This document shows positions 31,028 to 52,286 of a stretch of 58,922 nucleotides of DNA, in pieces; within the stretch, counting starts at the first letter, position 1, and every line of letters starts with the position of its first letter. The notes beneath the pieces were generated by a model, which did not search any database, was not told the DNA's origin, and was given only the letters and a program-made list of their open reading frames with translations. This stretch comes from Caldilineaceae bacterium SB0661_bin_34. GTDB taxonomy: Bacteria; Chloroflexota; Anaerolineae; Caldilineales; Caldilineaceae. The DNA is taken from contig VXMJ01000014.1 in the NCBI GenBank assembly GCA_009841145.1, forward strand, positions 1 to 58,922. Direction: 5' to 3'. The position numbers were made by a program, and so were the translations under genes.

Positions 31028-32710
31028 CTATCCAGTACTGGCCTCCGACGGACCATCCCACCCATAGTCACGACGCGCGGCGGCCTCGGAAATAAACCCA
31101 GCTTCCAGGTCGCGCCGAATGTGTTCGGTGGAACGTTCGACCACCGGCCCAAACCCGCCTCCACCTGGCATCAGCAACTCGATTTCGTCGCCGGGCTGCA
31201 GGTCCAGGGGCGGAAACCGGTCGATGTTCCTGCCGTTCCACCGAACCTCGCCCACGACACCGGGAACACCTCCGTCAAGCCCCGGCGGAGCACAGAACAT
31301 TTTGTCGGGCCTGACTCGACCCTGAATCGTGCTGTCGGCGATGTTCCTGAAGGTCATGCGCTGCCCGATGCCGCCGCGCTGGCGCCCGGCGCCCGCAGAA
31401 TCCGGCCGAAACTCCTTGTGGAGAATCAGGATGGGGGCCTGGGTTTCCATGATCTCAATGGGTGTAACGGAGCTGTTGTGGGGAAACGCAATGGGAGGCA
31501 TGCCGTCCAGCCCTTGCATGGCCCCTCTGCCACCGTGCGGCAGACAGCTCACGGAAAAGGAACCATACCCTTCCAGGTCGCCGTGCACGGAGAATGGCCA
31601 GATCGAACCGCTGCCGGCCTGGGCGTGCTCGCCCAGAATGGGCCAGACCGCACCGAACAGGACCTGGTTGATGTTGTTCGTCACCTTCGCCCGTGCCTGA
31701 ACAGGAAGCCCGTCATCGCAGTTGAGGATGCACCCCTTGGGCGCCGTCACGTGGATCGGCCGAAACAACCCCTGATTGTTCGGGATCTGGGGCACCAGCG
31801 AGCACTTGAAGGGATACATCGTGGAAGCAAACGTCGTGTTGTAGGCACAGTTGATGGATCCCTTGCGCGTCTGCGCTGATGTGCCCCCGTAGTCGACGTG
31901 GATGTCGTTGCCCTGAATCCGGACGGTGGCATGCAGGTGAACGATGTCCACATACCCGTCAATATCCAAACCGAACTCGAACTCCCCGTCGGGCAGCGCC
32001 TCGATGCGACTGCGCATCAGGCTTTCCGAACGGCCGTGAATGACACTGGACAACTCCACTAGGTCCGGCATCGCGTAGTCGTCCATGAAATCGCGCAGTC
32101 GCCTGATTCCGATCTGGTGGGTGCCTGCGATGGCACGGATGTCCCCCAAGACCAAATTGGGCACACGGCAGTTGTTGCCGATGACCTCGAACAGGAACTC
32201 GTTGGGCTCCCCCTCGATGAACAGTTTGGAGGGAGGAATGCGTATCCCTTCGGTAAAGACATCGTAGGCCTCGATGTCCCCCCGGTGACCGCCCACATCG
32301 GACAGGTGTGCCACTGTGCCCATGAACGCCACCGGCTTGCCCTGATGAAATACCGGGGTGAGCAGGATGTAGTCGGGCAGGTGGCCTGTCCCGATCCATG
32401 GATCGTTGGTGCACAGCACGTCGCCTTCCCTCAAGGTCTCCAGGGGATGGACTGCCAGGAGCCGACGTGCCGTGCGGGGCAGGACTACGCAAAAATTGGG
32501 CGGGGAAAACCGAGATTGGCAGAGTGAATCCCCGTTCTGGTCCACCAGAATGCAGGCAAAGTCGCGGCTCTCCCCGACGATGGTCGAGAACGATGTCTTG
32601 ACCGTGGCGAAGTCGATCTCGTCCATAATCGAGATCAGCCGCTGCCATTGGATTTCAAGGCTTACGGGATCGAAGTCCGGGGTTTCCGCAAAGGGATCTG
32701 TGGTTGTCAT
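31028..32710 (-). CDS. hyuB: Hydantoinase B family protein (HyuB), second copy
   Basis: A 560-residue HyuB-type subunit. DPVSLEIQWQRLISIMDEID, FSTIVGESRDF, NDPWIGTGHLPDY, HLSDVGGHRGD (putative metal site), GSGSIWPFSVHGD and MPGGGGFGPVVERS are all conserved. It closely resembles the third copy (39056-40705) along its whole length, and less so the first. ATG 32710 shares one base with the M14 peptidase stop (TGATG), so the two are coupled. With the two upstream hyuA genes it forms a minus-strand operon hyuA-hyuA-M14-hyuB. The enzyme would use ATP to open a cyclic amide (hydantoin or oxoproline class) or carboxylate a ketone; which is unknown. Confidence 0.93.
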   Translation of the reverse strand: MTTTDPFAETPDFDPVSLEIQWQRLISIMDEIDFATVKTSFSTIVGESRDFACILVDQNGDSLCQSRFSPPNFCVVLPRTARRLLAVHPLETLREGDVLCTNDPWIGTGHLPDYILLTPVFHQGKPVAFMGTVAHLSDVGGHRGDIEAYDVFTEGIRIPPSKLFIEGEPNEFLFEVIGNNCRVPNLVLGDIRAIAGTHQIGIRRLRDFMDDYAMPDLVELSSVIHGRSESLMRSRIEALPDGEFEFGLDIDGYVDIVHLHATVRIQGNDIHVDYGGTSAQTRKGSINCAYNTTFASTMYPFKCSLVPQIPNNQGLFRPIHVTAPKGCILNCDDGLPVQARAKVTNNINQVLFGAVWPILGEHAQAGSGSIWPFSVHGDLEGYGSFSVSCLPHGGRGAMQGLDGMPPIAFPHNSSVTPIEIMETQAPILILHKEFRPDSAGAGRQRGGIGQRMTFRNIADSTIQGRVRPDKMFCAPPGLDGGVPGVVGEVRWNGRNIDRFPPLDLQPGDEIELLMPGGGGFGPVVERSTEHIRRDLEAGFISEAAARRDYGWDGPSEASTG

Positions 32711-34404
32711 CACTGGTTGGAATCGCCGGTTTGCAAGTCTGCCAATGTCTTGGTTGCGGAACAGCTGCCAGCCTTGGCGGACCGCACCTGCACCGTAATC
32801 CTGCCCGTGCCCGGCCCGCGCACCAGCCACTCGGCAAGCCCGGCAGACTCGCCCCATGGTCGGCGCCAGGGATCGTACGGCATCCTGCGTTCCTCCCTGC
32901 CGGCCAGATCCCCGAGCGTGACCACAGACTGGCCCATGAGAAGCTCACAGTCCCGATCCAATTCCAACTCGACCGTGACATCGCCACCCTTGCCCAGGTT
33001 GCGGGCCTGATCGGTCAGGTTCGTGGCCAGGTAGCCCAGATTCTCGACCTGCGCCTGCACAATGTGGAGATCCTCCGAAACGGGCTGCGCCTTGAACTCC
33101 CGGATGTTCAGCAGGGGTGACGCCAAGGCATGCCGCACGGTGAACAGGGTATTGGGCAGGGCCACCTTGGCAATCAGCGACGGGGGCGGATTCCTATGGA
33201 TGAAGTAGGGGTCCCAGCCGCCGAGCAACACCGTTCCCAGTTGCGGGTGTTCGAACTCGCGCCAGTCCTGATGAGCCCGCGGACTGTGCTCGTCAGCCCA
33301 TGCCAGAAACCGTATCTGTTCGGCTTCGTTGTGCGGGCGGGTGGAGAAGAACTGCTGCTTGGGGATTCCTGCTTCGGTTTCGACATCCCACACCTCGCTG
33401 GCAAACGCCGGAATGCCCATGCGATCGTAGAGCCAGTCGGTGAACATGCCGTGCCGGGGACTCCGCATGTTGGGAGTGAAGTCCTCGTAGGTTGAAATCA
33501 GAGGGTATCCGGTAACCTCGGTGCCCACGGCACCCAGTTCCCTGTATATGTCGAGGTCGGCAGCAGGGAGTTCCGCATCCCTCCGGAAGCCCGAAGGCCG
33601 CAGGATGATGCCGCCGTGGCTGTGGTAGGCCTGGGCTCCCGTGATGTTCGGATGCGACAGCACGAAACGGGCCATGGCCATGGCTTCGGGTTCGTTGAGC
33701 GGAAAGTCCCCCGAACCGTACTCCCCGCCCTCCGGTTCCCAGTTCACCGGAAACTGCCGATTCAGGTTGCCGTGCCGCGGAGGCACGATGGGAAGGCCGA
33801 CCCCGTCCCAGTCCCTCAGCATCCCTTCGGGCAGCATGCGGTAGTACTGGCCGTCGGCTTCCCATGGTTCCCGCAACACCAGCAGGCGCGGTTCCGCGGA
33901 TGATCGTCGCCATTCGCCCCGCGGATCGGGAATGGCCATCTGCCGGATTTCACCATCCCCGTCCAAATCCTCCAGGTGAAGGCCCGTTGGATACTCGTCG
34001 GCCGGGTGATAACGGCCGGTGCCGACCGTGCGGTACGGAGTCGTCAGGCAGATCTCCGCGCCGTCGGGGTTTACCCGGGGCAACACATAGACGACGCGGG
34101 TATCCAGCAAACGAGTTACATCCGGATCCTGCCCGTACTCGCTCAACAGGAAATCAATGGTGTACAGCGTTACGGAGGAGGTAATCACCTCCTCACCATG
34201 GTTGTTGCCGTCGATGTAGAAGCCAGGCTTGGACTCGGGGCTGCCGGTGGCACGGTTGGTCAGGGTGACAGCCCAGATTTCACGTCTACGGAAGCTTTGG
34301 CCAACCGCCTCAAGCAGAGCCAGCTCCGGACTTGCGGTGACAAGCTCCTTCAGGGCGGCCGTGTATTCGTCGTAGGGCAGGTAGCGATCGTGCGAAAGTT
34401 TCAT
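32710..34404 (-). CDS. M14 family zinc carboxypeptidase, cytoplasmic
   Basis: A 564-residue M14 metallopeptidase. Zinc ligands: NNHGEE (His69, Glu72) and the later His in YHSHGG. LPRVNPDGAE is the usual NPDG motif, GNLNRQFPVNW matches the substrate-binding Asn-Arg, and FASEVW is the best candidate for the catalytic Glu. About 130 residues C-terminal to the peptidase domain form a beta-rich extension of unknown role. No signal peptide or membrane segment is seen, so it probably acts on imported peptides in the cytosol. Its position between hyuA and hyuB suggests that it releases or trims the Hyu substrate from a peptide. Confidence 0.9.
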   Translation of the reverse strand: MKLSHDRYLPYDEYTAALKELVTASPELALLEAVGQSFRRREIWAVTLTNRATGSPESKPGFYIDGNNHGEEVITSSVTLYTIDFLLSEYGQDPDVTRLLDTRVVYVLPRVNPDGAEICLTTPYRTVGTGRYHPADEYPTGLHLEDLDGDGEIRQMAIPDPRGEWRRSSAEPRLLVLREPWEADGQYYRMLPEGMLRDWDGVGLPIVPPRHGNLNRQFPVNWEPEGGEYGSGDFPLNEPEAMAMARFVLSHPNITGAQAYHSHGGIILRPSGFRRDAELPAADLDIYRELGAVGTEVTGYPLISTYEDFTPNMRSPRHGMFTDWLYDRMGIPAFASEVWDVETEAGIPKQQFFSTRPHNEAEQIRFLAWADEHSPRAHQDWREFEHPQLGTVLLGGWDPYFIHRNPPPSLIAKVALPNTLFTVRHALASPLLNIREFKAQPVSEDLHIVQAQVENLGYLATNLTDQARNLGKGGDVTVELELDRDCELLMGQSVVTLGDLAGREERRMPYDPWRRPWGESAGLAEWLVRGPGTGRITVQVRSAKAGSCSATKTLADLQTGDSNQ

Positions 34405-34606
34405 GGGCTAATTGGACTCGTGATTGGACACTTCAGTGCAACCGAACAAACAACCTGTACAACGACACGGGCGTCGAATTCTTCAATAGCTCCGTACTTC
34501 CGGCAGGACGCAGCAAACGATGTGTATTGGCTGAGTCTCGGATTCGTGGGTGGTGGCACACGTTCGGTCCCGATGGGTGTCGGTGGCTTGTCCCACACTC
34601 CAACCC

Positions 34607-36703
34607 TCATTCCGCCAGAGTGACGACCAAATTTCCAAAGCGGTCAATCTCGGCGGAGCCCCGCGGTCCAACCACGGCCGTGGATTCGCGTTCCTCCACG
34701 ATGGCCGGGCCGCGGACGGTTGAACCCCTGCCAAGCAGGTAGCGGTCGTAAACGGGAGTGTCGACGAAGTCCCCGGCCTCGGTGAAATAGGCGGGACGGC
34801 TGCCCTTAAGAGCCTGGTCGGGGCCTGAACCTGCTGCGAATTCGGGCAAGACCACCTGAGGCCTGGGACCGGAGGCGTTAAGCCGGCAGGTGGTGATTTC
34901 CAAGTCCAGATGAGTGTGGGCATGACCATAAATTTCCTCGTAGCGAGCGAAGAAGTACGGCCGCAAGTCCCCGTCCAGCGACATGTCGGAAGGTCTGGTG
35001 CAGGGCAGCGTAACCGAGATCTCGTGCCCCTGGCCCACATGGCGCAAATCGGCTTTGAGCGTAAAGGTCATGTCGTCGTCTGCGATACCGGCGGACTGCA
35101 GCACGCGCCTTCCTTCCACCTCCAATCCGGCATAGATTCCGTCCAACTCGATCAGGGACGAGGCATTGAGACGCTCCATGTGGGTGCGCGCGAACTCAAA
35201 CGCCGGCGGCGCGGTGAGGAAGCCCAGGGCCGACGTGACCCCGGCGGACGCGGGGCAGACAAACCCCTGCATCTTGAGCGCCCGCGCAATCTCATAGGCA
35301 TGCACCGGTCCGGCGCCTCCAAACGCCATCAGGCGGAGACTGCGGGGATCGGCACCCCGTTCCGCGACATGAACCCTGGTGGCCGAAATCATGTTCTCGT
35401 TGACTACCCGGAAAATCCCATGGGCGGTTTCGGTAACGGTCAAACCCATCCGGTCCGCCAACCCGGCCATCGCCGTTTCAGCCGCAGCCCGATCCAAGAT
35501 CATGCGCCCGCCGAGGAAGAAACCGGGGTCCAAATAGCCCAGCAGCAGATCGGCATCCGTCACGGTCGGCGCATCCCCGCCCAAGCCGTAACAGGCAGGG
35601 CCCGGATCGGCACCGGCAGAATCGGGCCCCACTTTGAGCAGGCCAAGTTCGTCAACCCGGGCCACGGATCCGCCGCCGGCTCCAATCTCGATTAGTTCGA
35701 TGGCCGGTACGCGCACCGGAAGACCCGAGCCGCGCTTGAAGCGGTGTACACGCGCAATCTCAAAGTGATCGGACATGGCCGGCTGTCCGTCCTTGATGAG
35801 ACACATCTTGGCGGTGGTGCCGCCCATGTCGAACGAGACCAGATCGGGCAGATCCAGCAGCTCGCCGTAGAACACGGCGGCCAGCGCCCCGGCCGCAGGC
35901 CCGGACTCGACCAGCCGGATCGGAAACTTGGCCGCGGTCTCCAGAGTCGAAACCCCGCCCGAGGAGAGCATCAGGAACATCTCGCGCTCGAATCCGACCT
36001 CCCTGAGAACCTCTCCCAGCTGCCTGAGATAGGTTGCGGCCAACGGCTGCACATATGCGTTGCACACCGTGGTTGACATGCGTTCGTACTCCCTGATTTC
36101 CGGAGCCACCTCGTGCGACAGGGATACGCGGAGATGGGGCAGGCGTTCCGAAAGCCAGGCACCTGCCTTCCGTTCGTGTTCCGGATTGGTGAAGGCATGC
36201 AGGAAGCAGACCGCAATCGATTCAACCGAGTCCGTTACCCCGGCGCGCTCCAATCGCTTGGCAATGTCGCCAAGACTGGCGACGGACAACTCCTCGATCA
36301 CACCACCGAACGCGTCCATGCGCTCCCTGGCTTCAAACCGCAACGGCCGGGGCACCAGGTGCTCAACCTGAGGAGCATGCAGGTCGTAGATGTCGTAGCG
36401 CATCTCGCGCTGGGTATCCAGCACGTCGCTGAATCCCTGTGTGGCCAGGAGCAGCGTTACTGCACCCTTGCGCTCGACCAGGCAGTTGGTGATCAGAGTC
36501 GTGCCGTGGATGGCGTTCGAAACCTGGGAACCGGAAAACCCGGCTTCGGCCAACAGCGTCCGCCAGCCGGCGCGCACGGCGGCTTCCGGGCTGCGCGCCG
36601 TGGTGGCCAGCTTGTGGCTGTGAATGCGACCACTGGCCTCGTCGTAAAGGACAAGGTCCGTAAATGTTCCGCCGATGTCGAAACCAATTCGAAGTCCGGC
36701 CAT
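34607..36703 (-). CDS. hyuA: Hydantoinase A family protein (HyuA), copy 1
   Basis: A 698-residue HyuA-type subunit with the actin-like ATPase fold. RIGFDIGGTFTDLV is phosphate motif 1, SFDMGGTTAKMCL phosphate motif 2, and AFGGAGPVHAYEIA the adenosine motif. SSGGVST, EIGAGGGSVA and the ATRVHVAERG segment are typical of the N-methylhydantoinase A/oxoprolinase A family. ATG 36703 places the Rossmann-like strand at residue 4; an in-frame ATG at 36772 would add 23 unlikely residues. A 202-bp gap separates it from the downstream M14 gene, longer than other gaps in this operon. It is strikingly similar to the upstream copy, so this is a tandem duplication. Confidence 0.93.
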   Translation of the reverse strand: MAGLRIGFDIGGTFTDLVLYDEASGRIHSHKLATTARSPEAAVRAGWRTLLAEAGFSGSQVSNAIHGTTLITNCLVERKGAVTLLLATQGFSDVLDTQREMRYDIYDLHAPQVEHLVPRPLRFEARERMDAFGGVIEELSVASLGDIAKRLERAGVTDSVESIAVCFLHAFTNPEHERKAGAWLSERLPHLRVSLSHEVAPEIREYERMSTTVCNAYVQPLAATYLRQLGEVLREVGFEREMFLMLSSGGVSTLETAAKFPIRLVESGPAAGALAAVFYGELLDLPDLVSFDMGGTTAKMCLIKDGQPAMSDHFEIARVHRFKRGSGLPVRVPAIELIEIGAGGGSVARVDELGLLKVGPDSAGADPGPACYGLGGDAPTVTDADLLLGYLDPGFFLGGRMILDRAAAETAMAGLADRMGLTVTETAHGIFRVVNENMISATRVHVAERGADPRSLRLMAFGGAGPVHAYEIARALKMQGFVCPASAGVTSALGFLTAPPAFEFARTHMERLNASSLIELDGIYAGLEVEGRRVLQSAGIADDDMTFTLKADLRHVGQGHEISVTLPCTRPSDMSLDGDLRPYFFARYEEIYGHAHTHLDLEITTCRLNASGPRPQVVLPEFAAGSGPDQALKGSRPAYFTEAGDFVDTPVYDRYLLGRGSTVRGPAIVEERESTAVVGPRGSAEIDRFGNLVVTLAE

Positions 36704-36778
36704 TGGGCTTGGATGTCCTGATTGTCCAGAGAGGTGGCTGCTGTGCGCTTCGCCATGTGAAGGCAAAGGCATCCGTGT

Positions 36779-38866
36779 TCAGTCGCGCAGGGTAACTACC
36801 AAATTTGCATACCTATCGATTTCACCAAGTCCGCGGGGCCCAATGACGGCCGTGGACTCGCGCTCCTCCACGATGGCCGGTCCCTCAACCGAGGTCCCCC
36901 GCCCCAGCAAATACCGGTCATAGACTGGCGTGTCGACATAGGATCGGGTTTCCGCGAAATACACGGGACGGCTGCCTTTAAGGGCAGCCGCGGGATCGGA
37001 ACCCGGCTCGGCCTCCGGCAACGCGATGTCCGGCTTGGGTCCGGAGGCGTTCAGGCGGCAGGTGGTGATCTCCAGGTCCAGATGGGTGTGGGCGTGGCCG
37101 TAAATTTCCGTATACCGGTCGAAGAAATGGGGCCGCAGTTGTTCTTCGAGCGATGTGTCCGCCAGGCGATCCCATGGCAGGGACACCACGATCTCGTGAC
37201 CCTGACCCACATGCCGCAGATCGGCCTCCCGCGTGAACACCATGTCTTCTTCCGCGATACCGGCCTTGCGCAGAACCTGCCTTCCCTCCGCGGCCAGTTC
37301 GTCGTAGATCCGGTCCAGTTCGGCCAGGCCGGACGGTTCCAGGCGCGCGATGTGGGTCCGGGCAAACTCAAAGGCGGAGGGCGCGGTTAGGAAACCGAGG
37401 GCCGAAGTCACACCGGCCGAGGCCGGGCAGACAAACCCGCGCATCCTGAGTGCCCGCGCAATTTCATAGGCGTGGACCGGACCTGCGCCACCGATGGCCA
37501 TCAACTTGAGGCGCCTCGGATCCGCCCCGCGCTCGGCCACATGGACACGGGTGGCCGAAATCATGTTTTCGTTTACCACCTGGAAAATGCCGTGGGCCGT
37601 GTCCAGGGCGGACAGGTTCATCTCGGCCGCCAGACCGGCAATCGCCCGTTCGGAAGCCGAGCGGTCCAGCGTCATGCGGCCGCCCAGAAAGAACTCGGGA
37701 TTGAGGTAGCCGAGCAGCAAATCGGCATCCGTGACGGTCGGCTGATCGCCTCCCAGGCCGTAGCACGCAGGCCCGGGGTCGGCACCGGCCGAATCCGGAC
37801 CGACCTTGAGGAGGCCCAGTTCGTCCTTGCGCGCAATCGAGCCGCCGCCGGCACCGATCTCGATCAGTTCGATTGTGGGAACGCGGACCGGCAGGCCGGA
37901 ACCCCGCTTGAAACGGTGCACCCGGGCGATCTCAAAGTTGTCGGACATGGCCGGTCGGCCGTCCTTGATGAGGCACATCTTGGCCGTGGTGCCCCCCATG
38001 TCGAAGGACACCAAATCGGGTTCGTCCAGAAGCTCCCCGTAGAACACAGCCGCCAGCGCCCCCGCGGCAGGCCCGGACTCCACCAGGCGGATGGGGAACT
38101 TGACGGCCGTTTCCAGGGTGGACACGCCGCCCGAAGAGAGCATGAGAAACAGTTCGCGGGCGAATCCGGCATCCCGTAGTCGGACCTCCATCTGCCTCAA
38201 ATAGGTTTCGGCCAAGGGCTGCACGTAGGCATTGCAGACCGTGGTCGACATCCGCTCGTATTCCCGAATCTCGGGCGCGACCTCGTGGGACATGGATATT
38301 GGGAGACCGGGCAGCCGCTCTGCCAGACAGGCCCCCGCCGCCTGCTCGTGTTCCGGATTGGTGAAAGCGTGCAGGAAGCAAATCGCCACAGCCTCAACGC
38401 CTTCGTCCGCCAGCACCTCGGCCAACTGCTCCACCTCCGGCGCACACAGCGGGGTAACCACCTCACCCCTGCCGTTCAGTCGCTCCTCGACCTCAAGGCG
38501 CAGACGACGCGGAACCAACGGTTCCGGCAGGACCAGGAGCAGGTCATAGATGTCATAGCGCATCTCCTTGCCCATCTCCAGAATGTCCCGGAAGCCCTTG
38601 GTAGTGAGAAACGCCGTCCGGGCACCCTTGCGTTCAATCAAGGCGTTCGTGAAAAGGGTGGTGCCGTGGATCGCGGACTCCACATGGGGCGCGTCCGCGG
38701 CCGACACCAGTTCCTGCCAGCCCTGCAGGACGGCCAGGGCCGGGTCGTGGGGCGTGGTCAGGGTCTTGTGGGTTCGAATGGCACCGGACTGTTCGTCGAT
38801 CAGCACAAAGTCCGTAAACGTGCCACCAATGTCAAAGCCAAATCGCAGCGAACGCCTGTCGTTCAT
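36779..38866 (-). CDS. hyuA: Hydantoinase A family protein (HyuA), copy 2
   Basis: The 695-residue tandem paralogue of the following gene, same domain order: FGFDIGGTFTDFV, SFDMGGTTAKMCL, EIGAGGGSIA and AIGGAGPVHAYEIA. Long stretches are identical to copy 1, while the segment after MRYDIYDL differs. ATG 38866 has GAAGGG a few bases upstream. It is the first gene of the minus-strand operon and is divergent from the third hyuB (39056), with a 189-bp shared regulatory region. The natural pairing of the two HyuA with the two neighbouring HyuB subunits cannot be decided from sequence. Confidence 0.94.
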   Translation of the reverse strand: MNDRRSLRFGFDIGGTFTDFVLIDEQSGAIRTHKTLTTPHDPALAVLQGWQELVSAADAPHVESAIHGTTLFTNALIERKGARTAFLTTKGFRDILEMGKEMRYDIYDLLLVLPEPLVPRRLRLEVEERLNGRGEVVTPLCAPEVEQLAEVLADEGVEAVAICFLHAFTNPEHEQAAGACLAERLPGLPISMSHEVAPEIREYERMSTTVCNAYVQPLAETYLRQMEVRLRDAGFARELFLMLSSGGVSTLETAVKFPIRLVESGPAAGALAAVFYGELLDEPDLVSFDMGGTTAKMCLIKDGRPAMSDNFEIARVHRFKRGSGLPVRVPTIELIEIGAGGGSIARKDELGLLKVGPDSAGADPGPACYGLGGDQPTVTDADLLLGYLNPEFFLGGRMTLDRSASERAIAGLAAEMNLSALDTAHGIFQVVNENMISATRVHVAERGADPRRLKLMAIGGAGPVHAYEIARALRMRGFVCPASAGVTSALGFLTAPSAFEFARTHIARLEPSGLAELDRIYDELAAEGRQVLRKAGIAEEDMVFTREADLRHVGQGHEIVVSLPWDRLADTSLEEQLRPHFFDRYTEIYGHAHTHLDLEITTCRLNASGPKPDIALPEAEPGSDPAAALKGSRPVYFAETRSYVDTPVYDRYLLGRGTSVEGPAIVEERESTAVIGPRGLGEIDRYANLVVTLRD

Positions 38867-38905
38867 TCACCCTTCGTCCTTCGTCCCTGTGCGCCGATAC
38901 AATCA

Positions 38906-38976
38906 CGGTGGCGCAGGCCTGCGCCGGATCGAATGTATCACAGTGGTCCCCGTGCGGATCATTGCCTGCGCCACCG
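38906..38976. promoter_or_regulatory. Inverted-repeat operator candidate between divergent hyuA and hyuB
   Basis: CGGTGGCGCAGGC at 38906-38918 is repeated as its perfect reverse complement at 38964-38976 (13 bp). The first copy is also half of a 16-bp perfect palindrome, GGCGCAGGCCTGCGCC, at 38910-38925. Three related half-sites in a 189-bp divergent promoter region suggest a regulator binding site. The distal half-site overlaps the -35 of the hyuB promoter candidate. Confidence 0.5.
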
Positions 38977-38989
38977 ATTGCGGTACATT
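38962..38989 (+). promoter_or_regulatory. Promoter candidate for the third hyuB gene
   Basis: TTGCCT, 16 bp, TACATT: four of six matches in each hexamer. It lies about 70 bp before ATG 39056 and overlaps the inverted half-site at 38964-38976, which would suit repression. Confidence 0.3.
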
Positions 38990-39055
38990 CCAGGAAGCAC
39001 CGCAGGATTTGCCGGCCTGCCGGACGGCCAACCCGAACAGACCCTCCCATCAACC

Positions 39056-43164: not shown

Positions 43165-43204
43165 AATGGTCGTTCAGCTATCATGAAGCCACTCAGCGAC
43201 CATT
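43165..43204. promoter_or_regulatory. Inverted repeat in the divergent aminotransferase/transporter region
   Basis: AATGGTCG at 43165-43172 and its reverse complement CGACCATT at 43197-43204 flank a TATCAT hexamer at about 43179. The 8-bp arms end about 17 bases before the ATG of the binding-protein gene. This is a plausible operator or promoter site. Confidence 0.35.
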
Positions 43205-43220
43205 TCAATAGGGGGCTTCG

Positions 43221-44855
43221 ATGCGAAACCGCCATATTCTTGTGACACTGATTGCCTTGTTGCTCGTCCTGGCGGGGTGTACGGCCCCGGCTGCCGAGGA
43301 AACGGCGGCGGGCGACGGCATGATGGCACCCAAGGGCGGAGACTTGATAATCGCGTTCCCGGCGAGCAGCGAACCGGCCACTTTGGATGGCCACATCGAC
43401 CCCTATCAGTCTGCATGGCTGTTTGATTCCTTCGCCGCCGACCCCCTTGTGATCCTGGCACCCGACGCCACCTACCAAGGGGCGCTTGCCGAGAGCTGGC
43501 AGTCCATTGACGGCGGTCTTGCCTGGACCTTCAATCTGAAGTCCGGCGTAACGTTTCAGGACGGCACCCCGTTCAACGCCGAGGCCGTGAAATACAACCT
43601 CGAGCGCATCCTGGCTCCGGAGACAGCCTCGGCGCAGATGGCGGCCGACCTGGGCGACGTGGAAAGCATCGAGGTGGTCGATAATCTCACCGTAACCATC
43701 CATTACGCGAGCCCCGCCGTCAACCTGCTCGACGCGCTGCGACGGGTCCCGATCTGGTCCCCGACCGCGGCAGACGAGCACGGACTCGCGGGTTTTGACA
43801 GACACCTCGTGGGTACCGGTCCATTCGTGCTGGAGGAATGGGTTCCCAACGACCGCATCGTGTTCAGCCGCTGGGACGACTACGGCGGCTGGAACGCAAT
43901 CATGGACCATGAGGGTCCCGCCTATCTGGACAGCGTCACCATTCGCTTCATCGGCGAGGACGCCGTGCGGGCCGCCATGCTGGAAACCGGTGATGCCCAC
44001 ATCATTCGCGAACTTCCCGCCGCCAACGTCGAGGATTACGAAGACCACGAAGGGTTTGAGCTGATTACGGGCTATCAGGCGGGTACCGGCCTGCAGATGG
44101 TGATCAACATCCGCAATGCCCCCTTGAACATCTTGGAGTTGCGCCAGGCGCTGCAGTGGGCCACGGATCAGGATGCCGTCAACGACCTGGCGTACGGCGG
44201 CCTCTACCTGGTTTCCGACGGTCCCGTCAACGTGGTGCATCCCTGCTACTGGCCGGGAGCCGCCGACATGTACGGCTACGATCCCGCCAAGGCTGCGGAA
44301 CTGCTTGAGAAAGTTGGCTATGTGGACAGTGACGGCGACGGCATCCGCGAGGCCCAAGGGGTTTCCGGGGTCGAGGACGGAACGCCGCTGAGCCTGCGCT
44401 GGACCGTACTGCACCACACGGAAATCGGCGAGGTAGTCCAGGGCCAGTGGCGCGACGTGGGCATCGACCTAGTGCTGGAGCAGGTGGCCGGTCCGATCCA
44501 GTTGGAGCGGCGGAACGCCCGGGACTTCGACCTGATGTACGAACGGCAGCGCACGCCGGATCCGGCGGTGCTGGAACTGGTGTGGAATTCGGCCAACGAT
44601 GTCGAGGGCGGCTGGGCCTGGACGGGTTTCGTCAACGCGGAACTGGACGAGGCGGTGGTCAAGATTCTGCAGGTGGCCGATCCCTCCGAGCGGTGCGAGT
44701 TGGCCCATACCGCGCAGCGCATCATCCTGGAAAACGCCGTGATGCTGCCGACGTTGAGCCAGCCTCAGTTCTATGCCCTTGATGATTCGGTGCACGGCTT
44801 CCAGCTGTCTTCCGAATCGCCCTACTTCTTCCTCCACAACACGTACATCGAATAA
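43221..44855 (+). CDS. Family-5 (peptide-type) ABC substrate-binding lipoprotein, copy 1
   Basis: A 544-residue binding protein of the DppA/OppA family. The Sec signal ends in a lipobox (LLLVLAGC), followed by an Ala/Glu/Met linker. YQGALAESWQSIDGGLAWTF, GVTFQDGTPFNAEAVKYNLER and VGTGPFVLEEWVPND are the family landmarks. ATG 43221 has a GGGGG run about 8 bases upstream. It is the first gene of a long plus-strand operon, followed after 67 bp by a second family-5 lipoprotein. Ligands in this family are di- or oligopeptides, but also opines, glycosides and nickel chelates. Confidence 0.94.
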   Translation: MRNRHILVTLIALLLVLAGCTAPAAEETAAGDGMMAPKGGDLIIAFPASSEPATLDGHIDPYQSAWLFDSFAADPLVILAPDATYQGALAESWQSIDGGLAWTFNLKSGVTFQDGTPFNAEAVKYNLERILAPETASAQMAADLGDVESIEVVDNLTVTIHYASPAVNLLDALRRVPIWSPTAADEHGLAGFDRHLVGTGPFVLEEWVPNDRIVFSRWDDYGGWNAIMDHEGPAYLDSVTIRFIGEDAVRAAMLETGDAHIIRELPAANVEDYEDHEGFELITGYQAGTGLQMVINIRNAPLNILELRQALQWATDQDAVNDLAYGGLYLVSDGPVNVVHPCYWPGAADMYGYDPAKAAELLEKVGYVDSDGDGIREAQGVSGVEDGTPLSLRWTVLHHTEIGEVVQGQWRDVGIDLVLEQVAGPIQLERRNARDFDLMYERQRTPDPAVLELVWNSANDVEGGWAWTGFVNAELDEAVVKILQVADPSERCELAHTAQRIILENAVMLPTLSQPQFYALDDSVHGFQLSSESPYFFLHNTYIE

Positions 44856-44922
44856 GCAGGTCCGGGCCCTGCCTTAAACTGTCCGGACTGAGATCGTCAA
44901 CCCTACCCAAGGAGAATTCGGA

Positions 44923-46527
44923 ATGAGACGTGCACTTGGATTACTGATGACTGCCGGGCTTTTGCTCCTGGCCTTGGCGTTGGCTGCGTGCGTCGCACCC
45001 GCGGCGCCGGAGGCGGCGCCCATGGAGGAAGAGCCGATGATGGATGAGGAAATCACCCTCACCATCGGCATGAACGAACTGGTAACGTCGCTCGATCCCC
45101 CGACCGACTGGGCTATCGCCGCGACCTGGATTCACACGAACATGTTCGACTGCCTGGTCTGGCGCAACCGCGAGACGGCGGATTTCGAGCCGTGGCTGGC
45201 CGAATCGTACGAGAACATTGATGACACCACCTGGCGCCTGAAACTGCGCGAGGGAGTCACCTTCCACAATGGCGAACCTTTCACTGCGGACGCCGTGGTG
45301 TGGACTTACAGCCGCATCATCGAGGCTTCGCGTGACGAGTTCATCACCTACAACCAGTGGCTCTTCATCGATCAGATGAACGTGTTGGACGACTACAACA
45401 TCGAGATCGTGACCGCCACGCCGGAACCGGCTTTCCTGAGCAAGATGGCAGGCACCGGATGCGGGATCCAGGCCCCTGAACACGGACGGGCCCAGGCTGA
45501 GAGCGGCGCGGACTACATGCCGGTGGGCACGGGTCCCCTGATGTTCGACAGCTGGATCAAGGACGACAGCATCACCTTGCGCGCCAACGAGAACTATTGG
45601 CAGGGCAAACCCGACGTCGACGTGGTCATCTGGCGCAACATTCCCGAGGTTTCGACCCGGGTGGCGAACCTGCTGACCGGCGACGTGGACATGATTGTGG
45701 CCGTCCCGCCCCAGGACTGGGAACGGGTCAACAGTAACGAAGGCACCAACGTAGTGGACTTCCTGACGACCAGAGTCATGTTGCTGGCCCTGCGCGTGGG
45801 ACCGTCCTCGACGATGGAGGATTGGTCGGGACCAACCGCCGATCGGCGCATCCGCGAAGCCATCAGCCTTTCCATCGACCGCGAGGCGCTGCTGGGCCTG
45901 ATTGACGGCATGGGCGTTCCTGTCCTGTCGCGCGTTACGCCCCCCACTCTGGGCTGGGACGAGCAGTTCATCAACCAGTTGGGCGAATACAACCCCGAGC
46001 GGGCCAAGGAACTCCTGGCTGAAGCCGGTTACGACGGCGAGGAACTGACCTACCACTCCAGCACGCGCTGGCTGGCGCAGAAGGAAGTTTCCGAGGCGTT
46101 GGAGGCCATGATGGAGGCCGTGGGCCTCAACGTGGATCTCCAAGTTCTGGACGTCACGACGTTCAACGAACAGGTCTATCGTCCCAACCGCAACGAAGAG
46201 ATTTACATGACCGCGCTGGGCAACTCCTTCTTTGATCCGTGGATCACGGTGTTGTCGGAACGCTCGGATCGGCGGGAGCGCTCGGGATGGGCCGGCCCCA
46301 ATGCCGATGCCGCGGATGAACTGATCAGGGCCGCGGCCGTGAACATGGATCCGGAAGCCCGAGGTCAACAGTATGTTCAGATCCAGGAACTCATCGCGGA
46401 AGACATTCCCTATGTCTACCTCTACCAGATGCGGGATACCATCGGCCTGAGCGACAAGTTCGCTTGGGATCCGCCCCTGGACGGGTTCATCTGGCTGGGC
46501 AACATCGACTACACGGCCAACAACTAG
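44923..46527 (+). CDS. Family-5 (peptide-type) ABC substrate-binding lipoprotein, copy 2
   Basis: A 534-residue DppA/OppA-type lipoprotein with lipobox LALAAC and a Pro/Met/Glu linker (PMEEEPMMDEE). FEPWLAESYENIDDTTWRL, GVTFHNGEPFTADAVVWTYS and VGTGPLMFDSW are the usual landmarks. It differs clearly from copy 1, so the two probably bind different ligands. AAGGAG lies 9 bases before ATG 44923. A strong hairpin follows the stop. The permeases that follow could serve either lipoprotein. Confidence 0.94.
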   Translation: MRRALGLLMTAGLLLLALALAACVAPAAPEAAPMEEEPMMDEEITLTIGMNELVTSLDPPTDWAIAATWIHTNMFDCLVWRNRETADFEPWLAESYENIDDTTWRLKLREGVTFHNGEPFTADAVVWTYSRIIEASRDEFITYNQWLFIDQMNVLDDYNIEIVTATPEPAFLSKMAGTGCGIQAPEHGRAQAESGADYMPVGTGPLMFDSWIKDDSITLRANENYWQGKPDVDVVIWRNIPEVSTRVANLLTGDVDMIVAVPPQDWERVNSNEGTNVVDFLTTRVMLLALRVGPSSTMEDWSGPTADRRIREAISLSIDREALLGLIDGMGVPVLSRVTPPTLGWDEQFINQLGEYNPERAKELLAEAGYDGEELTYHSSTRWLAQKEVSEALEAMMEAVGLNVDLQVLDVTTFNEQVYRPNRNEEIYMTALGNSFFDPWITVLSERSDRRERSGWAGPNADAADELIRAAAVNMDPEARGQQYVQIQELIAEDIPYVYLYQMRDTIGLSDKFAWDPPLDGFIWLGNIDYTANN

Positions 46528-46551
46528 CAACTACCGTTCGATGGTCAACCG

Positions 46552-46583
46552 GCGGAAGGCGGGAGTTTGTTCTCGCCTTCCGC
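46552..46583 (+). terminator. Intercistronic hairpin after the second peptide-binding gene
   Basis: Perfect 10-bp stem GCGGAAGGCG / CGCCTTCCGC with a 12-base loop, 25 bp after the stop and 67 bp before the permease start. It is probably an mRNA-stabilising or attenuating element that raises binding-protein output over permeases. Confidence 0.65.
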
Positions 46584-46649
46584 TGCCATCACCCCGCTGT
46601 GCCGGTGCCCATTACCGCGGCATCGGGGCTTGACGCCGGTGGATGACCG

Positions 46650-47582
46650 ATGCTGGCCTACCTCGGCAGACGGCTGGCGCAGCTTGTTCCCGTCCTGCTG
46701 CTGATTTCGCTGATCGTATTCCTGATCCTGCACGCCCTGCCCGGCGACCCTGCCATGCTCATGCTGGCCGGCGCGGAAGGGGGTGCGGTCTCCGCGGAAC
46801 GCATCGCCGAACTGCAGGAGGCCATGGGACTGAACGATCCCCTGCCCGTCCAGTACGGGCGCTTCCTGTTGGGAATCCTGCGCGGCGACCTGGGCGAGTC
46901 GATCCGGCTCCGGACGCCAGTGACGGAGGTCATCCTGGAGCGGTTCGCATTCACAATTCAGCTGAGTCTGGGCGGCTTGGCCTGCGCCTTGTTGCTGGGC
47001 ATCACCACCGGGATCCTGTCCGCCCTGCGCCCGAACGGCTGGACCGACGTGCTGTTCAGCCTCATGGCCTACTTCGGCATGTCCATGCCCTTGTTCTGGC
47101 TGGGCCTCATGCTGATCTTTCTCTTCGCCTTCCAGCTCAAGTGGTTCCCGCCGTCGGGGTCGGAAGGCCTTGATCGCCTGGTTCTGCCCAGTCTGACCCT
47201 GGGTTTCGTCTCCGCGGGCGCCATCAGCCGCCTGACACGCTCATCCCTGATGGAGGTCCTGCACGAGGACTATATCCGGACCGCACAGGCCAAGGGCCTG
47301 GCCCGGCACCGCATCGTGCAAAGACACGCCCTCAAGAATGCGTTGATACCTGTGGTTACCATCTTGGGCCTTCAGTTCGGCGGCATGCTGGCCGGAGCCG
47401 TCGTGACGGAGACGGTCTTCTCCCGTCCGGGCTTGGGACGCCTGGTAGTGCAGGCCATCCTTTGGAAGGACTATCCCCTGGCCCAAGGCATCATCCTGTT
47501 CATGGCGGTGCTCTTTCTGTCTGCGAACCTGCTGGTGGACATCTCCTATGCCTGGCTGGATCCCCGCATCCGCCTCCATTGA
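46650..47582 (+). CDS. Peptide-type ABC permease (DppB type), pair 1
   Basis: A 310-residue permease. The N-terminal helix is followed by LHALPGDPA, then six membrane segments in all. The EAA loop IRTAQAKGLARHRIVQRHAL followed by KNALIPV contacts the ATPase. VVTETVFSRPGLGRL and the C-terminal SYAWLDPRIRL are classic DppB features. The start codon ATG 46650 has only a weak site (GGTGGATG). The DppC-type partner begins about 110 bp downstream. Confidence 0.94.
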   Translation: MLAYLGRRLAQLVPVLLLISLIVFLILHALPGDPAMLMLAGAEGGAVSAERIAELQEAMGLNDPLPVQYGRFLLGILRGDLGESIRLRTPVTEVILERFAFTIQLSLGGLACALLLGITTGILSALRPNGWTDVLFSLMAYFGMSMPLFWLGLMLIFLFAFQLKWFPPSGSEGLDRLVLPSLTLGFVSAGAISRLTRSSLMEVLHEDYIRTAQAKGLARHRIVQRHALKNALIPVVTILGLQFGGMLAGAVVTETVFSRPGLGRLVVQAILWKDYPLAQGIILFMAVLFLSANLLVDISYAWLDPRIRLH

Positions 47583-47690
47583 GATGACGCCGTCGTCCGG
47601 CTCCGCTCCCGCATTCGCCCGTTGGCGAATACGAGCAGGGTTCGATGTTCCGTTTGCCACCGACCACTGACCGCGGCAGGTGTCCCGACC

Positions 47691-48572
47691 ATGTTCAGGC
47701 GCACGCTCCGGGCGTTCGGTTCGCAGCCACAGGGGGTCATCGGACTCGGCTTGTTGCTGGTCTGGCTGATTCTGGCCCTGAGCGCAACACAACTGGTGCC
47801 CTACGACCCTCTGGAGCAGGGCCTGCCGCCGGCCCGGGCCGGCGATTCTCCGGTGCGACAGGCGCCGTCGAGCCTCTATTGGTTCGGCACGGACGAACTG
47901 GGGCGCGATGTCCTAAGCCGGGTCCTGGCCGGAGCCCACATCTCGCTGGCCTTGGGCTTCATCAGCGTGTCGATTGGCCTGGTAGCCGGCACCGCGCTGG
48001 GCCTCTTGGCCGGTTTCTACGGTGGATGGGTGGACGGCATCGTCATGCGTGCCATGGACGCACTCCTGGCGTTTCCCGGCATCCTCCTGGCTCTCGTGGT
48101 GATTGCCGCCTTGGGAACCAGCATTCAAAATGTGATGATTGCCGTGGGCATTGCCATCGTGCCTCAATACGCGAGACTAGTGCGCGGCCTGTGCCTGACC
48201 ATTCGGGAACTGGCCTATGTAGAGGCGGCGCATGTGGTCGGCAGCGGACCGGTGCGTCTGATTTTCCGACACTTCCTGCCGAATATCGTGCCCCCGTTGA
48301 TTGTGCTTTCCACGTTGCAAATCGGGCAGGCCATCATCTACGGGTCGGCGCTCAGCTTCCTGGGCATGGGCGCGCAGCCACCCACCCCGGAATGGGGCCT
48401 GATTGCGGCCAAGGGCCGCGATTTCTTCCGCAAGGCCTGGTGGATCTCAACTTTCCCCAGTCTGGCCATTCTGTCGGTGGTGTTGGCCTTCAACCTGCTG
48501 GGGGACGGACTCCGCGGCCTTTTGGATCCCCGGATGCGCATGGTGCGGGTGACGGGCCAGCAAAATTCGTAG
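47691..48572 (+). CDS. Peptide-type ABC permease (DppC type), pair 1
   Basis: A 293-residue permease. WFGTDELGRDVLSRVLAGA is the signature after the first helix, and the EAA loop reads YVEAAHVVGSGPVRLIFRHF followed by LPNIVPP. ALSFLGMGAQPPTPEWG and LLGDGLRGLLDPRMR complete the family pattern. ATG 47691 is chosen because the first helix then starts in the usual place; the frame is open for 23 codons more. It is followed 27 bp later by the second enolase-superfamily gene. Confidence 0.93.
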   Translation: MFRRTLRAFGSQPQGVIGLGLLLVWLILALSATQLVPYDPLEQGLPPARAGDSPVRQAPSSLYWFGTDELGRDVLSRVLAGAHISLALGFISVSIGLVAGTALGLLAGFYGGWVDGIVMRAMDALLAFPGILLALVVIAALGTSIQNVMIAVGIAIVPQYARLVRGLCLTIRELAYVEAAHVVGSGPVRLIFRHFLPNIVPPLIVLSTLQIGQAIIYGSALSFLGMGAQPPTPEWGLIAAKGRDFFRKAWWISTFPSLAILSVVLAFNLLGDGLRGLLDPRMRMVRVTGQQNS

Positions 48573-48599
48573 AATGGGCAAGGAAAGGAGACAGCCGAA

Positions 48600-49685
48600 G
48601 TGAAAATCACGAACCTGAATGCAGTGGTGGTGTCCCTGCCGCGGACCGATACCCTGGTCACGTCCTACTCTCAAGCCACGGGCGCAACCACGGTGGTGGT
48701 AACCCTCGACACCGACGAAGGCCTGGTCGGCATTGGCCAAACCGCCGTCGCCCCCCTTTCGTACGGGGAAACGGCGGAAGGCATCCGGGCCAACATCCTG
48801 ACCCACCTGGCCCCAGCCGTCATCGGCGAGTGTCCCTTGGACATCGAGCTGCTCGTGAAGAAGATGGAACACGTGCTGCCCGACCATTGGTCGTCGCATG
48901 CCGGCGTGGAGATTGCCCTCTGGGATTTGAAGGGCAAGGCCTTGGGCGTGCCAATCTACCAGTTGTTGGGCGGCAAGGTGCGCGAGGGAGTCGACCTGAT
49001 GGGATTCGTGCACCATGGCGAACCCGCGGCCATGGCCGCGGAGGCCACCGCCACGCTGGATCACACCCCCTTTCCCGTGCTAAAGATGAAGATCGGCCTC
49101 GATCCGGATGACGATGTCCGACGATACGCAGCCGTGGCCACCGCCGTGGCCGGCAGGTCCGTCATCCAAGTTGACGGCAACGCCGGATACACGCTGGACC
49201 AGGCCGTGCCGGCCCTGGCTCGCATGGAGGCGTGCGGTTCTCTGGGCATCGTCGAACAACCGGTGGCGCGTTGGGCCGACATGGCGGTATTGGCCCGACG
49301 CCTGAATACCCCCTTGATGGCCGACGAAGCGATTTACCCTCCTCCAGACGCACTGGAAGTTGTTCGGATGAAGGCAGCCACGGTGGCGCTGATGAAGATC
49401 ACCAAGCACGGCGGCATCCTGAACGTATGGAAGATTGCATCCATCTTCGAGGCCGCCGGGTTCGATCTTTCAGTCGCCATCTACTACGATGTCATCGCGG
49501 TGGCTGCAGCACATCTGGCTGCGGCCGTATCCTGTACACGGTGGCCGTCGCCCTACACCTATCTGAACGATACGATCCTGGCCGAACCCTACGAACCGGA
49601 AGGGCTGCTCCTGCGCGTGCCGGAAAAGCCCGGACTGGGTGTGGAACTGGACATGGACAAGGTGGAGCGGTACCGCGTCCAATAG
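48600..49685 (+). CDS. Enolase superfamily enzyme (MLE subgroup-like), copy 2
   Basis: A 361-residue paralogue of the enzyme at 40748-41836. The KxK motif KMKIG, metal ligands in QVDGN, VEQP and ADEA, and the second lysine in MKITKHGG are all conserved, as is the LMGFVHHG segment that both copies share. GTG start at 48600 with AAGGAGA about 8 bases upstream. Insertion between two DppB/DppC permease pairs ties it to the import system. The shared, unusual IYYD segment on the eighth strand suggests that both copies act on related substrates. Confidence 0.93.
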   Translation: MKITNLNAVVVSLPRTDTLVTSYSQATGATTVVVTLDTDEGLVGIGQTAVAPLSYGETAEGIRANILTHLAPAVIGECPLDIELLVKKMEHVLPDHWSSHAGVEIALWDLKGKALGVPIYQLLGGKVREGVDLMGFVHHGEPAAMAAEATATLDHTPFPVLKMKIGLDPDDDVRRYAAVATAVAGRSVIQVDGNAGYTLDQAVPALARMEACGSLGIVEQPVARWADMAVLARRLNTPLMADEAIYPPPDALEVVRMKAATVALMKITKHGGILNVWKIASIFEAAGFDLSVAIYYDVIAVAAAHLAAAVSCTRWPSPYTYLNDTILAEPYEPEGLLLRVPEKPGLGVELDMDKVERYRVQ

Positions 49686-49697
49686 GGACCCTTCAGC

Positions 49698-50621
49698 ATG
49701 ACTACCTATCTGGCCTCGCGCCTGCTCCAGATGGTGCCTTCCCTGTTCCTGTTGACCGTGGTGCTGTTCGCCCTGATGCGCCTGGGCGGAGATCCCGTCA
49801 TGCATCTGGCTCACCCCGAGGCCTCGCCGGAAGAGATCGCCGAGATCCGCGCAGCCTACGGCTTCGATCGTCCCTTGCCGGAACAATACCTGAAGCAGCT
49901 CCGGATGATGCTGCGCGGCGACTTCGGCGAATCGTTTCGCTTCCGCTCGCCGGCCCTGCCGCTGGTGATCGAAAAGCTGCCGGCCACCATGGAACTGGCG
50001 GCGGTGTCCATGCTGGTGGCGCTGTTGATCGCCATCCCCGCGGGCCTGCTGTCGGCAATCTTCCAGAACTCACCCCTTGACCTGGGGGTCACCACCACCT
50101 CAACCCTGGGTCGGGCCATGCCCAACTTCTGGATCGGCATCATGCTCATCCTGTTGTTCGCGGTCCATCTCGGATGGCTGCCCGTTTCGGGACGGTTGGA
50201 AGCCACCTCGATCATCCTGCCGGCCCTCACCTTGGGGACGAGTGTGGCCACATCCCTGGCCCGCATTCTGCGTTCCAGCATGCTGGAGGTGATTCGGCAG
50301 GAATACATGACCACCGCCAAGGCCAAGGGCCTGCACCGGTGGGCCGTAGTCTTGGGACACGGCCTGCGCAATGCGCTGATCCCGTTCATCACGGTCTTCG
50401 GCCTGCAGATGGCCTGGCTGTTGGGGGGCTCGGTGATCGTGGAGGAGGTGTTTGCCTGGCCGGGCATGGGCCGTCTCCTGCTGAACTCCGTCAAGGTGCG
50501 GGACCTGTCCGTCGTCATGGCAGGGGTCTGCGTGTTTGCCCTGGTGGTGATGGGAACCAATCTGTTGGTGGACTTCCTGTACACCGCCCTTGATCCGCGC
50601 ATCCGCTACAGTTCCTCATGA
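49698..50621 (+). CDS. Peptide-type ABC permease (DppB type), pair 2
   Basis: A 307-residue DppB-type permease. LMRLGGDPV lies after the first helix; the EAA loop reads EYMTTAKAKGLHRWAVVLGH followed by GLRNALIP. VIVEEVFAWPGMGRLL and LYTALDPRIRYS close the protein. It starts 12 bp after the enolase-superfamily gene, and its stop overlaps the start of the DppC partner (ATGA). No matching ATPase genes follow. Confidence 0.94.
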   Translation: MTTYLASRLLQMVPSLFLLTVVLFALMRLGGDPVMHLAHPEASPEEIAEIRAAYGFDRPLPEQYLKQLRMMLRGDFGESFRFRSPALPLVIEKLPATMELAAVSMLVALLIAIPAGLLSAIFQNSPLDLGVTTTSTLGRAMPNFWIGIMLILLFAVHLGWLPVSGRLEATSIILPALTLGTSVATSLARILRSSMLEVIRQEYMTTAKAKGLHRWAVVLGHGLRNALIPFITVFGLQMAWLLGGSVIVEEVFAWPGMGRLLLNSVKVRDLSVVMAGVCVFALVVMGTNLLVDFLYTALDPRIRYSSS

Positions 50622-51541
50622 CCGCGTCCGGTCCGCAAGCACTTGGGCCGGAGTCCACAGTCTCCGAGCCCCGGAAGTATCGTTACCGCTGGTTGTGGCG
50701 CCTGCGGCATAGCCCGACCGGCACGCTCGGGGCTGTCATCGTCGTGGGTGTCGTGCTGGTCGTCCTGTTGGGCACGGCCATCGCCCCGCACGATCCGGAA
50801 CTGATCGATCTCAAGCAGCGGCTGGTCCCGCCCGTCTGGGCGGAAGGCGGCAGCGTGGGACATGTGCTGGGTACTGACCAGTTGGGTCGCGACGTGTTGA
50901 GCCGCATCATCCTTGGCACGCGGGTTTCCCTCCTAGTGGGAATTGCCGGGGTGGCCTTGGCCATGCTCACCGGGGTGTTCCTGGGTGTGACCACCGGTTT
51001 CTGGGGCGGTTGGTGGGACGGCCTTGTGTCCCGGTTCCTGGACACATTTTTGTCCATCCCCTTCATCATCCTGGCCCTGGCCGTCATTGGCGTACTGGGG
51101 GTTAAGGGCGGCAACAACATGCTGCGCTTGATCCTCGTCCTGGGACTGGCCAACTGGGTCATCTTTACCCGGGTTGTCCGGGGTGAAGTCCTGGCGGTCA
51201 AGGAACGGGACTATGTGGAAGCAGCCCGCGCCATCGGACAGCGCTCCTGGATGATCATGCTTCGCTACATCCTGCCCAACGTCACGGCCTCCATCATCGT
51301 CCTGGGTGCCTTGCAGATTTCCACGGTGATCATCGCCGAGGCATCCCTCAGTTTCCTGGGCCTGGGCGTGCAACCGCCCACCATCACATGGGGCATCATG
51401 CTGGCCGACGGGCGGGATCACCTGGCCACATCGTGGTGGCTGGCCACGTTTCCCGGCATTGCCATCACAATTACGGTGCTGGGCTTCATTCTTTGGGGCG
51501 ACTGGCTGCGGGACGTGTTGGATCCGCGCCTGCGCGAATGA
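50618..51541 (+). CDS. Peptide-type ABC permease (DppC type), pair 2
   Basis: A 307-residue DppC-type permease. VLGTDQLGRDVLSRIILGTR is the signature after the first helix; the EAA loop reads DYVEAARAIGQRSWMIMLRY followed by ILPNVTA. ASLSFLGLGVQPPTITWG and GDWLRDVLDPRLRE complete it. ATG 50618 overlaps the DppB stop. The next gene, encoding a DUF1028 protein, starts 36 bp later with its own strong ribosome binding site. Confidence 0.94.
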   Translation: MTASGPQALGPESTVSEPRKYRYRWLWRLRHSPTGTLGAVIVVGVVLVVLLGTAIAPHDPELIDLKQRLVPPVWAEGGSVGHVLGTDQLGRDVLSRIILGTRVSLLVGIAGVALAMLTGVFLGVTTGFWGGWWDGLVSRFLDTFLSIPFIILALAVIGVLGVKGGNNMLRLILVLGLANWVIFTRVVRGEVLAVKERDYVEAARAIGQRSWMIMLRYILPNVTASIIVLGALQISTVIIAEASLSFLGLGVQPPTITWGIMLADGRDHLATSWWLATFPGIAITITVLGFILWGDWLRDVLDPRLRE

Positions 51542-52285: not shown

Positions 52286-52286
52286 A

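Follow-up and report, generated by a model that had tools for sequence, protein, structure and literature searches.

A HyuA/HyuB, enolase and peptide-type importer gene cluster in a Caldilineaceae genome, possibly for the catabolism of peptide-like compounds with blocked or cyclic amide bonds

Gene content and arrangement of the locus

The window, i.e. the whole stretch of 58,922 nucleotides that was analysed, comprises contig C84 as a whole; this contig belongs to a Caldilineaceae genome of 4.34 Mb (Chloroflexota; completeness 98%; here G000). Its nearest relatives are Caldilineaceae and Caldilineales MAGs, three genomes being placed in the same genus, and the proteins of the window are mostly 90-99% identical to those of these relatives. 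Sponge symbionts are found among the sister genomes, and one relative, bin34 (MPMO), originates from the sponge Aplysina aerophoba (PMC5649159).

All genes named in the initial annotation were recovered in place by Pfam, i.e. two Hydantoinase_A, two Hydantoinase_B, one Peptidase_M14, two MR_MLE, a class I aminotransferase, two SBP_bac_5 and two DppB/DppC pairs (Table 1). However, its limits (31028-51541) proved too tight, leaving out HyuB3, the hydantoinase-like gene and the M24 gene on one side and DUF1028, SDR and AstE (51.5-54.4 kb) on the other. The stretches 1038-6454 and 51548-57387 were assigned to the set because their counterparts sit in the locus of G155, which belongs to another family.

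Table 1. Genes of the cluster, with positions in the window (G013 and G155, Anaerolineae; G403 and G556, class of a Bacillota MAG; percentages are protein identities)
Feature	Position	Strand	Evidence
HyuB3, third HyuB of the set, no adjoining HyuA	1038..2753	+	65-72% relatives in G013, G155, G403 and G556 loci
AHY0, cyclic amidohydrolase (allantoinase/hydantoinase/dihydroorotase type)	2750..4153	+	Pfam and NCBIfam; 49% in G155 locus
M24-fold hydrolase without prolidase metal ligands	5279..6454	+	58-66% in G155 and G013 loci
HyuB2 (Hydantoinase_B)	31028..32713	-	PF02538, 402 bits; D-H-D-H tetrad kept; start overlaps M14 stop by 4 bases
M14 zinc carboxypeptidase-like, C-terminal extension	32710..34404	-	PF00246; catalytic positions vs carboxypeptidase T; 57% relative in G155
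HyuA2, GGTTAK clade	34607..36772	-	Pfam; motif
HyuA1, GGTTAK clade, Lys296 at CapA Asp302 position	36779..38866	-	Pfam; alignment to 6yra/7hk5/5l9w; motif
HyuB1, metal tetrad D41 H101 D104 H126	39056..40705	+	Pfam; alignment
ENO1, MLE-subgroup enolase (K162 K164 D192 E219 D242 K266)	40748..41836	-	Pfam; invariant catalytic residues; AlphaFold2 model
AT, class I PLP aminotransferase	41863..43023	-	PF00155; 43-53% relatives near G013 and G155 loci
SBP1, family-5 binding lipoprotein	43221..44855	+	PF00496
SBP2, family-5 binding lipoprotein, core importer	44923..46527	+	PF00496; kept near HyuB/ENO in other phyla
DppB1 permease	46650..47582	+	Pfam
DppC1 permease	47622..48572	+	Pfam
ENO2, MLE-subgroup enolase, ortholog group separate from ENO1	48600..49685	+	Pfam; tree; loop difference
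DppB2 permease, core importer	49698..50621	+	Pfam; conserved in other loci
DppC2 permease, core importer	50618..51541	+	Pfam; conserved in other loci
DUF1028 protein	51548..52285	+	PF06267; 59% in G155 locus
Extended SDR, NAD-dependent epimerase/dehydratase type	52287..53300	+	PF01370; 33-46% relatives, equivalent place, other phyla
AstE/AspA-like deacylase	53325..54443	+	PF24827; 57-63% relatives in Chloroflexota, Trueperaceae and Bacillota loci
X54, conserved, no Pfam family assigned	54568..55986	+	37% in G155
Amidohydrolase, true start may be further downstream	56029..57387	+	Pfam; 72% in G155 locus

On the minus strand HyuA1-HyuA2-M14-HyuB2 looks like a single operon, with 6 bases separating HyuA1 from HyuA2, a gap of about 200 ahead of M14 and an M14/HyuB2 overlap; the peptidase gene lies between Hyu genes, as had been described. 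HyuB1 is divergent relative to HyuA1, AT-ENO1 forms a further minus-strand run, and SBP1-SBP2-DppB1-DppC1-ENO2-DppB2-DppC2-DUF1028-SDR-AstE-X54-amidohydrolase run along the plus strand. X54 (472 aa) gave no Pfam or NCBIfam hit, and its fold model (pLDDT 41) is too poor to read. Elsewhere in the window, the minus strand encodes a leucine-rich-repeat protein (26501-28102) unlike its neighbours of sugar and acid metabolism, and a short reading frame (21701-22315), whose match to DUF608 (GH116 catalytic region) covers just the latter half of the family, is probably a remnant gene.

The importer proteins match the peptide/nickel/opine class, and SBP1 and SBP2 start with lipobox-like sequences (LVLAGC and LALAAC). 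An importer ATPase was not found on this contig, while 32 oligo_HPY hits above the cut-off lie elsewhere in the genome; consequently, we infer that both importers share an ATPase encoded elsewhere.

Age of the gene pairs and co-occurrence in other genomes

The components of the locus had been described as paired. Two of each are indeed present, and the HyuA, HyuB and ENO pairs are 74%, 70% and 62% identical; however, with identities of 42% (DppB), 44% (DppC) and 26% (SBP), the importer genes are not close paralogues. In the HyuA, HyuB and ENO pairs four-fold third-base identity amounts to 0.31-0.46, and since synonymous sites look saturated along the whole length, recent duplication or gene conversion was ruled out. 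Our tree splits ENO1 from ENO2, and both groups include Chloroflexota as well as Trueperaceae members (support 91/96 for ENO2, weaker on the ENO1 side with 85/44). Quick trees also place HyuB1, HyuB2 and HyuB3 in separate groups, while HyuA1 and HyuA2 of the window genus are each other's closest relatives (support 100), distinct from the HyuA pair common to the Anaerolineae genomes G013 and G023. HyuA duplicated in parallel, within the window lineage and separately from the G013/G023 pair, and the ENO1/ENO2 and HyuB1/HyuB2 splits are older than the HyuA1/HyuA2 duplication. Given these unequal ages and two unrelated importers, a single duplicated module can be rejected as the origin of the pairs, and the earlier idea of two parallel branches was not borne out in that form. 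The G000 genome holds six HyuB and four HyuA genes in total; one orphan HyuB (G000:C34:15921-17441; L107 9903-11525) is 52% identical to HyuB1 and has no adjoining HyuA.

Outside the window genus HyuA, HyuB, ENO, SBP2-DppB2-DppC2 and the AstE-like deacylase recur together in other Anaerolineae, Trueperaceae (Deinococcota) and Bacillota, with 57-76% identity. Orthologues of ENO1/ENO2 (at least 57% identity) were detected in the window genus (four genomes), in the Anaerolineae G013, G023, G155 and G320, in G401, G402, G480, G504 and G514 from the class of a Trueperaceae genome, and in G403 and G556 from the class of a Bacillota MAG. They are rare, occurring in 7 of 396 Anaerolineae, 5 of 111 genomes of the Trueperaceae class and 3 of 43 of the Bacillota class (one of the three just 45% identical), and in a 400-genome phylum sample only in the window's own genome; homologues of the ENO pair above 60% identity were not found on plasmids. 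Outside the genus, every genome with an ENO orthologue has at least one ENO locus adjoined by HyuA or HyuB; Hyu genes are lacking at L091, a further ENO1 locus of G401, and at L102, where the 45% relative of G516 lies. SBP2-DppB2-DppC2 accompany the ENO loci of G013, G023, G155, G401, G402 and G514, and G556 shows a DppC fragment, while several other ENO contigs are too short to reveal an importer. As a control, about 35 further MR_MLE genes of G000 were considered, all of them more than 10 kb away from each of the six HyuB genes; ENO1 and ENO2, in contrast, both have a HyuB within that distance. The proximity of Hyu and enolase genes exceeds chance.

G155 (L099-L100), a distant relative, also retains M14 and most accessory genes. 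Within 34 kb its locus comprises AstE, SDR, DUF1028, M24, DppC2, DppB2, SBP2, HyuB, ENO, M55, M14 (57%), HyuA, HyuB, GntR, X54, an amidohydrolase (72%), a hydantoinase-like protein, an aminotransferase and HyuB3. The loci of Trueperaceae additionally carry S9 peptidases, an S12 protein and M55 as variable accessory genes; S9 peptidases like these were not found in G000 at E 1e-30, in a search without positive control. Rather than being scattered without co-occurrence, the paralogues stay with the gene set across three phyla, in agreement with the initial view of a single co-inherited, importer-coupled system with peptidases.

Two further observations concern the Trueperaceae. L095 and L096 (G402) and L037 (G401) comprise HyuB and ENO without adjacent HyuA, and a strong HyuA match was not found in G402; HyuB without its usual partner may function alone. 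Furthermore, judged from sequence starts only, Gfo/Idh/MocA-like oxidoreductases recur next to ENO1 and behind SDR in L037, L092 and L093; such genes also occur in the window (4243, 6424 and 57529).

Catalytic residues of the Hyu proteins and enolases

HyuA and HyuB are partner proteins with Hydantoinase_A and Hydantoinase_B domains (Pfam) and fall into the Hyu/oxoprolinase family. Alignments revealed that the Asp-His-Asp-His metal tetrad of HyuB and the phosphate-binding motifs of HyuA are retained, both of which are needed for caprolactamase activity (PMC8453981). The same architecture is found in caprolactamase CapAB of Pseudomonas jessenii (PDB 6yra). However, our proteins reach 514, 485, 167 and 165 bits against a cut-off of 1000 and lack the vicinal Cys pair (vicinal disulfide) of CapB; their identity as caprolactamase was rejected since the scores fall far under this value. 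In addition, the motif DMGGTTAK, with Lys at CapA position 302, is shared by HyuA1, HyuA2 and every relative in these loci. In contrast, CapA, N-methylhydantoinase, the gamma subunit of acetophenone carboxylase and the two other Hyu pairs of G000 have Asp there, the residue seen in the characterised ATP-dependent lactamases and hydantoinases that we compared. The only enzyme with Lys discussed by PMC8453981 is ApcA alpha' of acetophenone carboxylase. Cyclic-amide (lactam) ring opening by HyuA1/A2 and HyuB is plausible; because Lys replaces Asp as in ApcA alpha', the reaction of HyuA1/A2 may be another than lactam hydrolysis. The Lys form also occurs in alphaproteobacterial HyuA proteins (about 50% identity), found in plasmid HyuAB-DppABCDF operons of Aminobacter, Leisingera and Pseudoroseomonas. 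These share a family-5 type importer with our locus, but several of their HyuA are fused to HyuB, importer ATPases are included and an enolase pair is missing. We know of no characterised lactamase in the GGTTAK clade.

The catalytic residues of the enolases (KxK, three acidic ligands and the opposite Lys; Table 1) are invariant in 17 sequences, as typical for the MLE subgroup. The AlphaFold2 model of ENO1 (pLDDT 93.9) is nearest to chloromuconate lactonizing enzymes (Z 47), followed by N-succinyl-Arg/Lys racemase, dipeptide epimerases and N-acylamino acid racemases, and cycloisomerase, racemase and dipeptide epimerase are not separable by fold comparison. With muconate and chloromuconate cycloisomerases and the N-succinyl-Arg/Lys racemase our enolases share fold (Z 45-47) and catalytic residues, but just about 25-29% identity, and the motifs of those enzymes are replaced by IY[YF]D after the eighth strand and by WPSPxT. 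Membership in TIGR02534 (muconate cycloisomerase) was rejected, since 190 and 215 bits fall far under the cut-off of 335. That the locus encodes two enolases, as claimed initially, gains weight from their distinct, conserved loops: six of the ten informative positions that discriminate ENO1 from ENO2 (end residue omitted) cluster in the seven-residue loop 48-54, which reads SVDAPF in ENO1 and AVAP[LR]S in ENO2. Since this conserved loop differs, and since we take it to be the loop with which the capping domain closes over the substrate, ENO1 and ENO2 probably act on related yet different substrates. G000 contains about 36 MR_MLE genes in 4.3 Mb, which agrees with published expansions of the enolase superfamily in SAR202 Chloroflexi (PMC6946804).

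Candidate pathways and their significance

We tentatively regard the locus as a cluster of co-inherited genes that couples an importer to the catabolism of peptide-like compounds with blocked or cyclic amide bonds, a reading to which we give slightly less than an even chance. The sequences themselves show that the genes are associated, that ENO, HyuB and M14 retain their catalytic residues and that ENO1 is split from ENO2. Peptide import, ring opening, racemisation or epimerisation, transamination, their order and the substrate are what we infer. SBP/DppBC would import small peptides or amides. Trimming would fall to the AstE-like deacylase and to peptidases, M14 here and S9, S12 and M55 in relatives. 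HyuA would then use ATP to activate a resistant and probably cyclic amide, the opening of which HyuB would complete on its metal. Two carboxylate products related to each other would lose their alpha proton to ENO1 and ENO2, with racemisation, epimerisation or cycloisomerisation as the outcome. Finally, SDR and aminotransferase could channel the product into central metabolism. The co-occurrence across phyla, the peptidases within these loci, the importer class, the retained Hyu and enolase residues and the HyuAB-DppABCDF operons of the same HyuA clade are consistent with this proposal. The M14 protein in particular keeps the metallocarboxypeptidase residues, namely HxxE, the third zinc His, the catalytic Glu and the substrate-binding NR, when aligned to carboxypeptidase T (HGEE, YHSH, SEVWD, LNR), as does that of G155 (variants HGRE/TELWD). 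However, the Lys of the HyuA clade, some Trueperaceae loci with HyuB and ENO but no adjoining HyuA, the ambiguous enolase fold, and AHY0 together with the metal-less M24 protein, which suggest small cyclic C-N compounds rather than peptides, speak against it.

The main rival, which we consider unlikely, is a pathway for exactly such compounds (hydantoin, creatinine, ectoine-like). Here a cyclic ureide or amidine would be imported, AHY0, HyuAB and M24 would open rings, AstE would deacylate, ENO would racemise an N-carbamoyl or N-acyl amino acid and the aminotransferase would finish. AHY0 resembles allantoinase, dihydropyrimidinase and hydantoin-5-propionate amidohydrolase, and the best-scoring solved relative of both Hyu subunits is N-methylhydantoinase (7hk5, 9h03), which differs as a single fused chain with Asp where our locus has Lys. 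The M24 protein, compared to E. coli PepP in all three orthologues, has lost three of the five prolidase/aminopeptidase P metal ligands (D, D, H, E, E), namely the two Asp and one of the Glu; a prolidase function was thus rejected, and the protein is better seen as a putative creatinase/ectoine-hydrolase-like enzyme. Its best NCBIfam hits are ectoine hydrolases, and the sole NCBIfam hit of AstE is the ectoine-pathway deacetylase; M24-fold and AstE-fold partners are also combined in ectoine degradation (EutD/DoeA and EutE/DoeB). However, 37 bits against cut-offs of 575-613 and 39 against 403 are far too low for membership in the DoeA/DoeB pathway, and the M14, M55, S9 and S12 peptidases of the same loci would get no role.

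Salvage of murein peptides or D-amino-acid peptides is decidedly improbable. The dpp-ykf murein peptide operon of Bacillus and ycjG-mpaA of E. coli combine a peptide importer, an MLE-type enolase and M14 or M55 peptidases, as our locus and its relatives (M55, S12) do. In a counterpart, Dpp would import, M14/M55 would trim, ENO would act as dipeptide epimerase and HyuAB would handle pyroglutamate from D-Glu; dipeptide epimerases trail the best fold match of ENO1 by no more than about 3.5 Z units. However, these operons are not known to carry Hyu, AstE or SDR, and an LD-carboxypeptidase or NlpC/P60 gene was not found in the window. Furthermore, the Asp site near the barrel end, which in the epimerases binds the ammonium group of the dipeptide, appears not to be conserved across the ENO2 group (WPSPYTYL, i.e. 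WPSPxT and then Tyr, versus ADLDGP in YcjG; gapped alignment).

Even more doubtful is a carboxylase-like or other ATP enzyme combined with a cycloisomerase, acting on a non-peptide carboxylic acid. The Lys shared with acetophenone carboxylase alpha' (PMC8453981) and the muconate cycloisomerases as top profile and fold matches of ENO point in this direction, but HyuA1 scores higher as caprolactamase (514 bits) than as ApcC (308) or ApcA (170), and the peptide importer and peptidases do not fit. Least probable are plain 5-oxoprolinase genes merely near peptide importers: a PxpA family match was not found in the G000 genome, so another enzyme may do that job, but two further Hyu pairs of this genome carry the usual Asp and the ENO-Hyu linkage is maintained across phyla.

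Genes for HyuA/HyuB are numerous, and the names 5-oxoprolinase or hydantoinase are often given to them without proof (PMC8453981, PMC6061476); they were reported to be enriched in sponge symbionts without known role (PMC5649159). A literature search on this gene set found no paper, those on SAR202 and sponge symbionts being context. The enzyme families are known, while their combination and two key groups, the GGTTAK HyuA and this enolase subgroup, are without established substrate. With HyuAB, two differentiated enolases and a peptide-type importer tightly associated across phyla, the substrate question becomes narrow enough to test, and the Lys/Asp switch near the ATP site splits the HyuA family. 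One might speculate, as a possible if somewhat unlikely case, that the Lys-type HyuA/HyuB activates and opens a resistant peptide-derived ring in an undescribed route and that the two loop-differentiated members of a new enolase subgroup process two products. If true, this would be the first function for the GGTTAK HyuA clade, also present in Alphaproteobacteria, and for this enolase subgroup.
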